From Cavenderia fasciculata (lineage: Eukaryota; Evosea; Eumycetozoa; Acytosteliales; Cavenderiaceae): a stretch of 64,000 nt of DNA. The notes below the pieces were generated by a model that was not told the DNA's origin, did no database searches, and worked only from the letters and a program-made list of their open reading frames with translations. This document shows, piece after piece, positions 50,451 through 61,220 of this stretch. Location: the NCBI RefSeq assembly GCF_000203815.1, contig NW_004457644.1:682001-746000 (forward strand), read 5' to 3'. Within the stretch, counting starts at the first letter, position 1, and each line of letters begins with the position of its first letter. Both the position numbers and the translations under genes were made by a program.

Positions 50451-51461
50451 TTATTGATTATATGATTTTAAATTTATAATCATTTCAAATTGAGTAAAAG
50501 AAGGTTGAAGATTAAATAGACCAAATAATTCATTGGTTGTTGGAGTGGATGAAGAGTCGCGTGAATCAATCGTAATACATTTAAATGGTGTAGGATTGGT
50601 CTCGTTGCAATAATCAATACAAAGAGATTGTAGTAGTATCTTGGCATCACTTGATGAATCGAATCGGTATTGTGAAATGAGACCAAGTTGTTTCTTGACA
50701 AGTAGGAATGATTTGCTGTCTTGAAGGTACCGATATTCAACTTGATCAGAGTCTGTCTTTAGACACCCTACTTTGCCCTCCCATTGCGGTGCGTACAACA
50801 TGTCTGGTACGACTGAATAATCTATATCTGCACCATACTTTACTTGTACTAATCTCTTGATTTGTTCATTGTCAATGATAACTTGTGTAGCACCATCATC
50901 CAATGTCAATTGTTGTTGTAGTTGTTGTAGTTGTTCTAATACGATTGGTTTAATGTCACCTTTAACAGTTTGCAAATGACGATGAATATGAAAACCAACA
51001 GAGGTGTATGCTTTGACAGCCTTTTCATTGATCGATATGACTTCGAGTTGTATTTGTTCAATACTCTTTTCTTTTGCTAGTATAGGGATTGCGTGTTGGT
51101 AGATACATTGTACCAATCTTTTGCCTCTATACTCTGGTACCACTCCAGTGATACAATTGTATGCATTCACACCATCAATACCCAATACTACAAACCCAAC
51201 CATTACCCCATCCCTCTTTGTATAGGCTGCAAAGCTATACTTGTAATCTACCATGCCCATTCTCCATCTAGAGATAAAGTAGTCATCTGCCACTTGACTG
51301 AAATTAACAAAGTAGTCTGAGAATGCAAGTCTCGAACATTGAACTATATCCTTGGGATCAGTACCCTCCAATGACTTTATGATTATAATCTCCTCTTCTT
51401 GGGTAGAGTTGTTGTTGTTGTTGGTATTGGGGAAGGTAGGTGGTTGTATCGTATGCTCCAT
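50451..51461 (-). CDS. GNAT-family N-acetyltransferase
   Basis: A single exon encodes 336 residues. After a Thr/Asn-rich N-terminus, the GNAT core runs from about residue 27 to 165: IIKSLEGTDPKDIVQCSR, VMVGFVVLGIDGVNAYNCI, TGVVPEYRGKRLVQCIYQHA (acetyl-CoA loop, near the Q/RxxGxG/A pattern), and VISINEKAVKAYTSVGF. A C-terminal ~170-residue extension contains no clear second GNAT core but may be a degenerate one. No signal peptide or membrane segment is present, so it is probably cytosolic. Substrate is unknown. It is distinct in sequence from the GNAT protein at 32602. Confidence 0.75.
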   Translation of the reverse strand: MEHTIQPPTFPNTNNNNNSTQEEEIIIIKSLEGTDPKDIVQCSRLAFSDYFVNFSQVADDYFISRWRMGMVDYKYSFAAYTKRDGVMVGFVVLGIDGVNAYNCITGVVPEYRGKRLVQCIYQHAIPILAKEKSIEQIQLEVISINEKAVKAYTSVGFHIHRHLQTVKGDIKPIVLEQLQQLQQQLTLDDGATQVIIDNEQIKRLVQVKYGADIDYSVVPDMLYAPQWEGKVGCLKTDSDQVEYRYLQDSKSFLLVKKQLGLISQYRFDSSSDAKILLQSLCIDYCNETNPTPFKCITIDSRDSSSTPTTNELFGLFNLQPSFTQFEMIINLKSYNQ

Positions 51462-52633: not shown

Positions 52634-55600
52634 ATGAACTCAAAGGTTACAAGTTTGTTTGTTTTAGTGTTTTTGATTTGTTTGGCTTGTCAGATTTTCA
52701 TTGTAAAAGCCCAAACAGGTAAGTCACCAATGTCGCAATGACCGAAAAAGGCAACATCAAAACCCCCCAACACGTTGATCAAGCCTTGTCTTTTGTTCAA
52801 ACCATAAAAAAATCTAATTTCTCTTTTTGTCTCTCTCTTTTTTCTTTCTATTTCCATTTGTAGATTTAAATTCACCTAGCTTGGACATTACGAGATTATT
52901 ACCAACGACGATAGACGTTCATTATACAGTCCAAGGAGGCGACGGCACACCCGTCACAACCCAAGTTTTCCTCAATCAACAATTGGATACCATTTCCAAT
53001 TGCAACGACACTGATTGTACTTTTAATTCACTCAATCCCGAACAATCCTATAATATTACCATCCTTTTCACAGATGCTACCACTTTTACAAATATTACTC
53101 AAATCATTAATACTCCATCATGTAAGTCGAATATAAATAGTTTATCGAAAGTAATTTTGATTCACAATATTTATTTATTATTTTCCCTTTTTCCCTTTTT
53201 AGATTTAAATGAACCAATTTTAAATTCAAAAGATGTTCATACAACATGGATAACATTAAATTTGACATTGAGTGGAGGCGACAATTCACAAGAATATCTT
53301 ATCGACATTACATCTGTAGGTAACGTCTCACCAAGTATGACGTTTACCTGCGAGCTAAATAATACTTTTGAGATTTGTACCATTGACAATCTCATCGACA
53401 ATACAGACCAATCACTTTTGGTCAAAATAACCAATGGCAATCAAATCAATTCTACTACCATTTCTTTTAAAACTTTTCAATGTAAATATTTAGTATTAAT
53501 AATATTCGTTGATCATCATCATCATTATTTCTAACAAATATATATATATTTTATTTATATTTAGCTATTCAACTAGTAAATTTAACATATGAAGTACTAC
53601 CAAATGTTAAAGGAGTTAATTTTACATATAATTTGGTTGGTGGATTGGGAGATTCTATTGTCACGAATGGTTATGGCTGCAACAATACAGATTGTCTTAT
53701 TTCTTATTCATACCTCATTCAAGGAACCAATGCAACATTTACATTCATCATTGAGAATGACAATACCATTTTAACTTTTCCAGTCACCCTGTATATACCT
53801 TGGTCAGGTAAGAAGAAGAAGAAGAAGAAGAATATAAATATTTATTTGTGGATATTAACCAACATTTTCTATTTTCTATATATAGCAAACAACCTTTTTA
53901 CGATCGCTACACAACTTGTTACGGCCACATCATTTGGTATAAGAAGTAATTATGATGGAAATCCACAAACAAAACGGTACACAATCTATGTCAATAATGT
54001 ATTACAAACACATTGTAGTAACAATGTAGATCTATGTCAAATGACTGGGTTATCGGCAGCAACAGCCTATTTCATTACTGGATCCGTTTATGATGGTCAA
54101 TTTAATTTCACTAGACCAGCTACAAGTCCTGTTAATGTTAGAACTCAAGTTGGTAAGTAGTAAAAGACTTAAATATATAGAGGTTATTTACTAAAATTAT
54201 GATTATTATTATTATTTTTTAAAGCAATTAATACACCAACACTGACACAAACGATTACAACTAAATCTATTAAAATTGATTATTCGATTCTTGGAGGTGC
54301 TACTCAATCCGCTTTAAAGAGAAATTATGTACAATTGAATGGTGTCAATGTGACTGGATGTACTCAAGCCACTTGTACAATGAATAATCTTAAAGATGGT
54401 ACAACTTACAATGTCACTGTTGTTTTTACAAGTGAAGGTTATGTTGTTCTTGCTTCAAGAATGATGACAACTTTTAAAAGTATTTAGAAAAACAATATCA
54501 CAATCAATCACATTTGTTTTACTTACTTTTTTTTTTTTTTTTTTTTCCAAAAGATATAACAGCACCAATTATTAATTTTTCAAGAGGATATGGAAAACTT
54601 GTAGTTAATTGGGTAACATTATATGGTGTACCAGGAACAAGTCGTTACAATGTATTTGCCAATGGAACCATTGTTACAGGATGTTCCAATTTATTGGCTT
54701 CGAGTTGTGTTGTTTCAAACTTACAAATTGGTGAAACCTTGGATTTCAGAGTAGATGTAACAAATGATGATGATCTATCAAATAATACAAATAGTTATTT
54801 TATTATTCCAGGTATGAGAGAAAAAAAAAGAAAAAGAAAAAAGAGAGAGTAAAAAAGAATCAACAAAAGAGGATGGATAATTAATTGTTATTTTTTATTT
54901 TAAATAGAACCAACATTATCAGTAATAACAACAACAACAACATTTGATTCAATTATATTAAATTGGACAGAAAGTATTAGTAGTATACCTTTGGAGCAAA
55001 CTACATATACTGCAATGATTTCATTTGATTCTTTTACTTGGTTTAGAAAATGTCTAAATACCGCCTCACTCTCTTGTGTCTTTGATAATTTACCTCAAAA
55101 CACTACCTATAGTACCCGAGTGGATATTAATAGTCCTGGATTTTCACCAAATGAAAATTATAAATCACTTACAACTTTATTTTCAAATGGTAAAAAAAAA
55201 AACAAAAGATAAAAAGAAAGAAAGATATAATAATCTTTTTGAAATAATAATAATATTAATCCAAATTTTATTTATTTTTATTATTTTAGAAACAATAACA
55301 TGTCCAAAATCAAATTCACAAGTCCAATGCAATGGAAAAGGAACATGTGTAGAAGGTATTTGTCAATGTGATGTTGGATTTACAGGACATGCTTGTGAGT
55401 GGAAATTAAATGATAGTAGCAAGGTTGCTATAAAGTCATCTTCAAACAAACCATTGTTGGACTTTGGCAATGGGGAGGGATACCAATTTTCAATGTCTCG
55501 TTTGGTCGAAGTCGATGCAAATGGAGCTACAGTGGCTACTATTGATATTGCTACTGAGATTTGGGAGTTGGTCACGTCCAACATTGCCATTATCACTCAC

Positions 55601-56470
55601 CCTACCAATGGCAGTCCGGTTTCACAAGTGCGTCGTGTTTATATCCTCTCCAAGAACAGTCCAAACGCTGCGCTTGCCGATAATATTGCCATCACGTTTA
55701 CACAATTGGTTCCAATCGCAGGGACACTGGGCGACAACTATCCATACGAGTTTGCTGGTGACGACTTTGCGGTCACATATGGTGCCGTCAAGTTTACAAT
55801 TCGTGTGTCCAAATGGGCATTTACATCATTTGACAATCAGTTGCAGATTCACAGCGAGCTCACTGTTGCCCCGGCCTGTCTAACCTCACCCGTCTCACTC
55901 ACCTTTGACAACAATGCCAATCGATCTTTTGCACTTGTCTATTCACAGTTCCAATCCAAGGGACGTTCCGTCTATTCTCGTTTTATCAATCGTGCCATGT
56001 CTGATGCCTTGCCACGTGCAGTCTCACACAAAATGACCCAATCCTCTACCAGTTTCAATGGTTCCTACACTACAAAGGCCACCATCATCTCGACCTTTGG
56101 CAATTTCAGGAGCCAACTTCTCTATGATCCAGATTTTGCTGCTTCCGGCCTCACCACACCACTCTGTGCTTCTCCAACCACCGGTGGCGGAGCAACCACC
56201 ACCACCTCTTCGACTACCGCTTCAGGAGACACTACGTCTACCACCACCTCTGGAGGTGAGTCAAACCCTTCAACAGAAGATGAAAGTGCATGGAAAATTA
56301 CAGTTGGTGTGGTAGTAGGTGTAGTTGGATTGGCACTTGTCGCCACTGCCATCTTTCTTACTCGCCAAAGATACATGATGAAATCTAGACAAGGCCAACC
56401 CAAGAGAAAAAAACAAAAGAATTCAAATCGATTTGGTATCGATTTGGAAAAAGTTGGAGGAAACAATTAA
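52634..56470 (+). CDS. Single-pass surface protein: seven FNIII/Ig-like domains, EGF, ComC-like domain
   Basis: The nine exons are 52634-52718, 52864-53121, 53203-53481, 53565-53807, 53886-54152, 54225-54479, 54554-54811, 54908-55189 and 55290-56470, giving 1035 residues. All eight introns are phase 1. Exon 1 is the signal peptide; exons 2-8 each encode one ~80-95 residue beta-sandwich-like domain. Each of these has a short-spaced Cys pair (for example CNDTDC, CTQATC) followed by a LxxxTxY-like strand typical of fibronectin III folds. Exon 9 holds an EGF domain (CNGKGTCVEGICQCDVGF), a ~250-residue domain resembling the C-terminal domain of ComC-type proteins, a Ser/Thr-rich stalk, one transmembrane helix (ITVGVVVGVVGLALVATAIF) and a basic tail. 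It is probably an adhesion or signalling receptor; the ligand is unknown. Confidence 0.85.
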
Positions 56471-60086: not shown

Positions 60087-61220
60087 TTAAAATAAATCAC
60101 GTTTATTTAATTTAAGTTCTTCATCATTTTTTGGTTTAAAATGTTTGACAAAAGTTTGTGAGACCAAGAGTGGGAAGACGAGGGAGGCGTCGGCGTAGAC
60201 CTTGACGGGCTTGGCATCGAGTTTGATCTTGCCCCAGCTGACAGCTTCATCGGGACGTGCACCAGAGTCAGATCCGTCGAATTCCTGACCCGTGTTGATG
60301 TAGACGGCATATTCGGCACCGTTTCTAAAGAGGTTGGCATTGCAAATGTGATGTTTGATGACACCACCACCCAAGATGATGACACCACTCTTTTTAGAGT
60401 AGATGGCGTGGTTGTTGATGGCACGGATATCGGCGACGAGGTCGACGATGAGACCGGGCTTGGAGTAGCTGTGAAAGTACATCATGTCACCGATCGAGCC
60501 GTCTGTGATGGCTGGACAGTAGACAGGGATGTTGTTACGATGTGCCCAGTAGAGGATGGAATCTTCGTTTTTAATCTCCTCTCCGAGACGGTTGATGACG
60601 CGAGAAGGTGTCCATCTGATCCCCTTCTTTTCCTGGTCGTCTACCATACGGTCGAGGACGGGCATCACCCAATCCTCAAACTTGCAGTAGTTGTCATTTG
60701 GCACCAAAAGATTACCGATACGATTCAAACCACGACGACGAAGGTCGGCACCAGGCATTGAAAACTCGCCCAGATAGGTTGGTGCCAAACACTTGATAAT
60801 GTCTTCTTCGACACCACCGGCCGTCGACACGAGCACATCGACCATACTGTGTTGCACGAGGTAACGGATAACCTCACGCACACCCGACGATACCAAGTTG
60901 GACGTGTACCCCAAAAATATCTTGCAACGCGTGTTCTTCCGCGTCTCTTGATCGTGGTAGTCTTCCGACTCATCCTCTTTGATTGGGTCATCTGATAGAC
61001 GCCAGCTGATCATTCTCTTGACCTCTTCGATTGCCTGTCCCATTGCACTTGCTTGGAAGCCAGTTCTGACCAACGATTCAAACAATGCATCATAATCGAG
61101 ACCCTTGTTGAAATCGTACCCCTTTATCTGTTCTCTACCTTCTAAATCTTTGGGGTCAGATTGAAAAAATACTGCATTCTTTGCGTCATCATTGACTTTT
61201 ACTTCTTGTTGATTATTCAT
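60087..61220 (-). CDS. dhps: Deoxyhypusine synthase
   Basis: A single exon encodes 377 residues, close to the ~370 of the eukaryotic enzyme. Family motifs are in order: [60 protein letters not shown], and GRSGVI-type [20 protein letters not shown]. These are followed by [20 protein letters not shown] with GKI, where the catalytic Lys sits. By family knowledge it transfers the aminobutyl group of spermidine to one Lys of eIF5A, using NAD+, in the cytosol. Coding GC is noticeably higher than in the flanking genes, fitting strong expression. The gene is intact. Confidence 0.97.

Follow-up and report, generated by a model that had tools for sequence, protein, structure and literature searches.

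Phase-1 one-domain exons in the fn3 array of a predicted dictyostelid surface receptor, and exon-block duplication in its paralogues

Introduction

Modular proteins assembled by shuffling of class 1-1 exons, which have phase-1 introns on both sides, are confined to animals in passages of a review in which Patthy asks why exon shuffling should be so restricted and why the exons should be of class 1-1, and answers with hypotheses (PMC8001218). Outside animals, each repeat of the brown algal LRR-ROCO genes (LRR, leucine-rich repeat) is encoded by one symmetric exon, an arrangement termed exon shuffling in part of the corresponding report (PMC11378527). In dictyostelids, the Tgr proteins (TgrB1/TgrC1) are presented, in passages of two papers, as large variable surface families with tandem Ig-like folds that act in cell recognition (PMC4931340, PMC3188802). 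None of the titles and abstract openings listed in searches of open-licence literature reports that dictyostelids shuffle exons of class 1-1 or exons for fibronectin type III (fn3) domains, a scope that does not imply absence from print. Here we analyze a stretch of 64,000 nucleotides (nt) from Cavenderia fasciculata (contig NW_004457644.1, positions 682,001 to 746,000 of the forward strand; hereafter the window, numbered from its first letter), and in it the gene at 52634-56470 on the plus strand (the window gene). A preliminary description made from the sequence alone had proposed it to encode a surface receptor of seven one-exon domains with phase-1 introns throughout, produced by tandem exon duplication. 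We give a probability of about 0.66 to the joint reading that the product belongs to the ComC type of dictyostelid surface glycoproteins, spans the membrane once and carries seven Cys-paired fn3 domains on top of an EGF domain, a supersandwich domain (SSD) and a membrane helix; that the gene is modular and represents the fully separated state, each fn3 domain being one class 1-1 exon; and that the ectodomains of its family grew by tandem duplication of phase-1-bounded units of one or two domains, in the window gene itself presumably as an old event.

Gene model and intron phases

Manual rebuilding of the window gene yields nine predicted exons, eight GT-AG introns and a protein of 1035 residues. 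The parts of the gene are listed below; E-values of fn3 domains refer to the hold-out profile described in the next section, unless Pfam is named.

52634..52718, +, exon 1 (85 nt): start codon and signal peptide, 28 codons and one base; hydrophobic N-terminus read by eye, gene finder in agreement
52719..52863, +, intron 1 (145 nt): phase 1, between signal peptide and fn3 domain 1
52864..53121, +, exon 2 (258 nt), fn3 domain 1: class 1-1, 86 codons, E 2e-12; misses the Pfam fn3 cut-off (E 0.015)
53122..53202, +, intron 2 (81 nt): phase 1; length a multiple of three, stop-free
53203..53481, +, exon 3 (279 nt), fn3 domain 2: class 1-1, 93 codons, E 8e-9
53482..53564, +, intron 3 (83 nt): phase 1
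53565..53807, +, exon 4 (243 nt), fn3 domain 3: class 1-1, 81 codons, most diverged, E 9.5e-5
53808..53885, +, intron 4 (78 nt): phase 1; length a multiple of three, stop-free
53886..54152, +, exon 5 (267 nt), fn3 domain 4: class 1-1, 89 codons, E 5.5e-9
54153..54224, +, intron 5 (72 nt): phase 1
54225..54479, +, exon 6 (255 nt), fn3 domain 5: class 1-1, 85 codons, E 8e-13; misses the Pfam fn3 cut-off (E 1e-4)
54480..54553, +, intron 6 (74 nt): phase 1; smallest summed splice-site score among the eight
54554..54811, +, exon 7 (258 nt), fn3 domain 6: class 1-1, 86 codons, E 7e-17
54812..54907, +, intron 7 (96 nt): phase 1
54908..55189, +, exon 8 (282 nt), fn3 domain 7: class 1-1, 94 codons, E 2e-12
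55190..55289, +, intron 8 (100 nt): phase 1, between the last fn3 domain and EGF
55290..56470, +, exon 9 (1181 nt): EGF, ComC_SSD, stalk, membrane helix, tail and stop
55301..55396, +, EGF-like domain: PF07974 E 5.7e-5, PF23106 E 2.1e-6
55430..56146, +, ComC supersandwich domain: PF22933, best stretch residues 148-256 of exon 9; strands of the structural model at 47-285
56297..56365, +, membrane helix: hydrophobic stretch read by eye, helix 333-367 in the exon 9 model, followed by a basic tail of about 35 residues

All eight introns are in phase 1, with a GC content of 11-36%, and exons 2-8 code for 81-94 residues apiece. A gene finder that had been trained, without any bias as to phase, on the window together with related loci returned the identical nine exons at two of three penalty settings, while the strictest setting gave eight exons and one intron less. 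The first setting, chosen after inspection of its window models, was used for all later work. As a background we took 82 introns of 50 gene models devoid of fn3 and EGF-SSD, which are distributed over phases 0, 1 and 2 as 33, 25 and 24; the chance of drawing eight phase-1 introns out of eight from this background (25/82) is 0.305^8 = 7.5e-5. None of the six background genes with four or more introns is a single-phase gene, and the other 23 models of the window have 1.57 introns per gene, with a maximum of five. Phase 1 by chance is ruled out by the value for the window gene together with the family-wide count reported below (83 of 85). Thus, the nine-exon structure with phase-1 introns throughout that was put forward in the preliminary description holds for the predicted gene.

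Domain anatomy of the predicted protein

The hold-out fn3 profile comprises 103 domains from outside the window, gathered by a search seeded with the window exons. It has one match in each of exons 2-8 (13.9-54.0 bits, E 9.5e-5 to 7e-17), the best of 210 shuffled exons reaching 10.3 bits, and no match was listed for exons 1 and 9 searched singly. By this profile, exons 2-8 are all assigned to one domain family. Pfam fn3 (PF00041) scores 35.3 bits on two stretches of the whole protein, against a cut-off of 25; of the single exons, exon 2 (15.9 bits) and exon 6 (22.9 bits) are below the cut-off, and exons 3, 4, 5, 7 and 8 have no Pfam fn3 match at E<=1. Exon 4, the weakest fn3 match, is predicted on its own to fold as a seven-strand sandwich, which aligns end to end with solved FN3 domains. 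A further profile (A2), made of 56 family fn3 domains including seven from the window, matches titin FN3 at 5e-18 and fibronectin FN3 at 3e-10. Each of the fn3 domains of exons 2-8 has a Cys pair, and the exon border is the domain border for all seven; the earlier statements that each of these exons holds one domain of about 80-95 residues and that domain and exon borders coincide are both supported by these results.

Exon 9 has to be described differently from a single domain, as it encodes EGF, ComC_SSD and the membrane anchor. Searched alone, it exceeds the Pfam cut-offs for PF22933 (32.4 bits, cut-off 24), PF07974 (23.8, cut-off 22.1) and PF23106 (28.1, cut-off 24.3); the whole-protein search, which listed 16 Pfam families at E<=10, did not include PF22933. 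In a fold search (Foldseek), the supersandwich of exon 9 was closest to the luminal domain of the lysosomal membrane protein GLMP (E 6.8e-5, template modelling (TM) score 0.38), a match too weak for assigning a function. The fn3 stalk of the ectodomain carries predicted glycosylation sites, and the basic C-terminal tail contains no recognised domain. Judged from this anatomy, the protein is most likely an adhesion or recognition receptor that binds a ligand or a partner cell.

Gene family and family-wide phase rule

The genome containing the window (31.0 Mb, 21 contigs) has 68 matches to the EGF-SSD exon and at least 150 to ComC_SSD, all above the cut-off (150 of the 282 candidates scored), whereas 14 control genomes have no ComC_SSD match. 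The ComC_SSD matches often stand in tandem clusters about 4.5 kb apart (e.g. C17:384297-443961 and C14:2087753-2112078), a few of them with internal stops, and this large set looks like a big recognition repertoire. We sampled 42 anchor-bearing gene models or fragments (L028 and L047 being the same gene twice), 22 of which have fn3 matches, and 40 of the 42 were used for a tree, two being omitted as too long or too short. All 20 rows with fn3 matches, together with one fragment, fall into one clade of 21 rows (support 99/96), which suggests a common origin of the fn3-bearing genes. The other 19 rows have no fn3 match, and several of them possess LRR-like or beta-sandwich regions instead. The window gene forms a long branch, with a long-branch warning, beside P4 and L035 (92/88); an alternative tree in which it branches first in the fn3 clade is not rejected (p-AU, of the approximately unbiased test, 0.169). 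A Cys pair is present in 99 of 110 family fn3 domains.

Across 25 fn3-bearing models, with arrays delimited by detected domains, 85 introns are situated within the fn3 arrays or next to them, 83 in phase 1 and two in phase 0, and none is located inside a detected domain core. Seventy-five of the 85 are at most 16 residues from a detected domain edge, 73 of these being in phase 1. After exclusion of partial-locus and L038 models, 59 of 59 introns are in phase 1, and 51 of 51 if the window gene is also excluded. By comparison, the remaining 28 introns of the same 25 models are in phase 2 (19), phase 1 (7) or phase 0 (2). The position is similarly regular: 48 of the 56 introns just ahead of a domain lie 6-7 residues from the profile start (of all 56, 55 are in phase 1 and one in phase 2), and in the window gene the intron ahead of every fn3 domain sits 6-8 residues before the domain core. 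Both phase-0 introns were retained in the count of 83 of 85, although they come from faulty models. In L038_0 the exon opens with a stop, a fault of the finder (intron of 45 nt, 44% GC, acceptor score -1.0), and the model of L038_2 is cut by the locus end. The phase-2 intron of L044_1 and the phase-1 intron of L039_1 lie in stretches with no detected domain and look false (38-39% GC). Some fn3-SSD copies of L038, L039 and L044, which belong to a cluster on C13, have such false-looking introns (38-44% GC, weak sites), which look like bridges over stops or breaks of the frame; these copies are possibly decayed.

Exon-block duplication in paralogues

Exon-bounded tandem duplication occurs in this genome, in the paralogues P1, P2 and L029. 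In P1 (in C5:2178658-2187270), exons of 498, 531 and 516 nt are followed by exons of 498, 525 and 519 nt, the copies being 94, 93 and 88% identical. The same three-exon block is present twice in P2 (in C5:1960390-1967199; copies 89, 88 and 81% identical) and in single copy in P3 (in C5:858593-865429). Each exon of the block encodes two fn3 domains, giving six per block, and the array introns are all in phase 1. Corresponding introns of the P1 and P2 block copies have diverged, with 61-84% identity over the aligned part and many gaps. L029, from the clade without fn3, contains three tandem one-domain class 1-1 exons of 267, 267 and 261 nt with 58-66% nucleotide identity; one of the two exons tested weakly matches the second beta-sandwich of ComC (PF24143, E 0.014, below the cut-off). 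Because the introns on either side share their phase, such an exon, or a run of such exons, can be copied, lost or skipped with the reading frame intact.

The tandem exon duplication earlier proposed for the window gene is thus seen in paralogues. As for the one-domain exon as the unit of duplication, L029 does have three such exons, but the usual unit in paralogues is an exon of about 165-180 codons with two fn3 domains, and in P5 seven fn3 domains are encoded with no introns between them. The copies of exon 2 are most alike within P1 (94.4%) and within P2 (89.0%). For exons 3 and 4 of the first blocks, by contrast, the highest identity is that between the two genes (94.5 and 94.4%), a pattern of mosaic homogenisation of exons.

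Several other anchor-bearing genes show further exon patterns. In L034, L049 and L042, which lack fn3, N-terminal regions that look LRR-like by eye are cut by runs of phase-2 introns, and L034 and L049 have several exons of 60-75 nt, about one repeat each, resembling the logic of the fn3 exons in a different phase. L047 (C14:2404074-2409316) has ten predicted introns, nine of them in phase 1, and five exons of 303-330 nt, one of which matches DUF7743 at 1.7e-23; it is possibly another class 1-1 array. Two neighbours of the window gene are ordinary, namely, a deoxyhypusine synthase gene at 60087-61220 on the minus strand (E 4e-124) and a GNAT acetyltransferase gene at 50451-51461 on the minus strand (E 1e-7).

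History of the array of the window gene

The seven fn3 domains of the window gene are strongly diverged, the other six having 19-24% amino-acid identity to that of exon 6. For domains 2, 4, 5, 6 and 7, the best paralogue match clearly exceeds any within the gene; domain 3 is a near tie (56 within the gene and 60 elsewhere), and the best partner of domain 1 is domain 5 (75, compared with 70.5 elsewhere). Given this divergence and the closer matches in paralogues, any duplication in the window gene would be old; a recent one is contradicted by the low exon identity and the closer paralogue domains. In 12 of 19 other models, including P1-P5 and L035, the last fn3 domain finds its best window match in domain 7. 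When domains 1-6 are split into two sets of three, the alternating split (1, 3, 5 and 2, 4, 6) scores best of the ten possible ones, as expected if a two-domain unit was copied.

A number of observations weigh against the duplication history and the phase rule as read above. With 41-50% identity between its exons, and introns that resemble one another no more than shuffled sequences do, no duplication in the window gene can be dated. The test of the alternating split has a best possible p of 0.1, there being ten splits, and higher same-parity similarity, found in the window gene and in P1-P3, is absent from P4, P5 and L035; with cross-gene parity mixed as well, we rejected a pair-unit origin as a clade-wide rule. 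The agreement of domain order with P3 and P5 rests mainly on domains 6 and 7, and with domain 7 left out, 72 of 720 orders are as good for P3 (not significant) and 14 of 720 for P5 (weak); in-register orthology with P3 and P5 is accordingly not established for the whole set of seven domains, but for domains 6 and 7 at most. Regarding the phase rule, the models are related and the 85 introns are therefore not independent events, and ten of them fall in gaps with no detected domain, where they cannot be judged as border introns. Finally, exchange of modules between unrelated genes was demonstrated in none of the family models analyzed.

Alternative explanations

The one-domain exons may have arisen secondarily, if each exon of the ancestor encoded two domains and introns 2, 4 and 6 were added to the window gene at a later time, at the linkers inside domain pairs and in phase 1 by chance or preference; the one-domain exons would then not be what made the array. 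An intron is present at all six borders between adjacent domains in the window gene and at 20 of 62 such borders in other models; an intron ahead of the second-last fn3 domain is found in the window gene only, among about 13 models (about 12 others) that could be scored through two adjacent detected domains at that place. Introns at pair-internal borders were likewise seen in the window gene alone. The two-domain exons of the paralogues and the best tree, which nests the window gene beside P4 and L035, point in the same direction. On the other hand, three independent gains would each have had to arrive in phase 1 and at an identical place in the linker, 6-7 residues ahead of the domain, and the tree with the window gene branching first is still admissible. 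Moreover, part of a comparison of two Dictyostelium species counts 643 precise intron losses, 98 putative gains and, in one of the two species, frequent joint loss of neighbouring introns (PMC4683709), and this large excess of losses over gains makes intron loss plausible. An introner-like source of intron 2 was rejected, as the genome holds only its own copy; introns 4 and 6 were not searched. Copying of a two-domain exon as the unit accounts for the alternating pattern of the paralogues more easily than loss does, and for the pair-internal introns of the window gene gain is as possible as retention; as an account of the whole pattern, secondary intron gain seems to us unlikely, at about the level of a serious minority view. 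It is improbable that introns in the linkers of secreted proteins have a general preference for phase 1 (through proto-splice sites or glycine-rich linkers) and were each placed independently, duplication having no part in the pattern. In passages of the review cited above, Patthy offers such a preference for animals, and intron 1 would fall under the excess of phase 1 described around signal-peptide cleavage sites (PMC8001218); on our tree, the intron state changed at least twice at the border before the last fn3 domain and at least three times at the border after it. Yet the other introns of the same proteins are mostly in phase 2 and the background has phase 1 in 25 of 82, whereas the repeated exons in P1, P2 and L029 are each still flanked by phase-1 introns.

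It is also very improbable that the count of phase-1 introns is inflated by faults of the gene models, some of the eight introns not being real. The length of introns 2 and 4 is a multiple of three and they lack stops, so their retention would keep the frame; the splice sites of intron 6 are weak, the strictest setting of the gene finder lost one intron, and the paralogue models are ab initio, some of them merged or truncated and with a few false-looking introns (GC 38-44%, weak sites). However, six of the eight introns break the frame or carry stops, and the coding log-odds of all eight, if read through, are between -9 and -30. The negative scores of introns 2 and 4 disfavour their retention, which in any case would leave six introns, all in phase 1. 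Acquisition from an animal of a gene with 1-1 fn3 exons might be suspected from the resemblance of the family profile to titin and fibronectin FN3. We consider it extremely improbable, because the gene shares its SSD anchor, which has no match in the 14 control genomes, with a large family of this genome, because most fn3 domains of the family (99 of 110) carry a Cys pair, which is unusual in animal FN3, and because the introns are short and mostly AT-rich.

Duplication of phase-1-bounded units thus remains our preferred explanation for the family. More tentatively, and with the odds against it, dictyostelids may have independently evolved an exon-module system like that of animals, in which exons for fn3 and ComC beta-sandwich domains, bounded by phase-1 introns, and LRR-like exons in phase 2 were duplicated, and perhaps exchanged, upstream of a common EGF-supersandwich-membrane anchor, producing a large receptor repertoire. 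In such a system, frame-neutral skipping of exons could further vary the length of the ectodomain.

Comparison with known systems

The anchor of the window protein is like that of Dictyostelium ComC and the EGF/ComC_SSD family (PF22933), with EGF followed by a supersandwich domain and then a membrane helix; compared with ComC, as represented by Pfam names and passages of papers, the window protein adds seven N-terminal fn3 domains. In a passage of one paper, comC mutants are listed as aggregating aberrantly (PMC2873529). The Tgr proteins have IPT/TIG domains, whereas no TIG/IPT family is among the 16 listed Pfam matches of the window protein. The brown algal LRR-ROCO genes, in the part of the report cited above, have phase-2 LRR exons of 72 bp beside a ROC-COR GTPase unit, in contrast to the phase-1 extracellular fn3 exons described here. 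The closest likeness is to animal class 1-1 modular proteins, e.g. those with the fn3 modules of titin, which likewise combine fn3 modules, phase-1 introns at module borders and growth of tandem arrays. The window gene differs from them in being amoebozoan, in having its own Cys-paired fn3 subfamily and in its ComC supersandwich anchor; furthermore, the copying demonstrated in its family is tandem duplication rather than exchange between unrelated genes. If dictyostelids did independently evolve an exon-module system, class 1-1 exon shuffling would not be an animal invention and would be tied to surface recognition in an independent multicellular lineage. Patthy's questions become testable in a receptor family of Amoebozoa whose fn3 exons are of class 1-1, keep strictly to one phase and have been duplicated in blocks, among them whether phase 1 comes from a preference in insertion or from the copying of units. 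Such a family would also suggest that social amoebae build and vary their recognition ectodomains by the same genomic route as animals.

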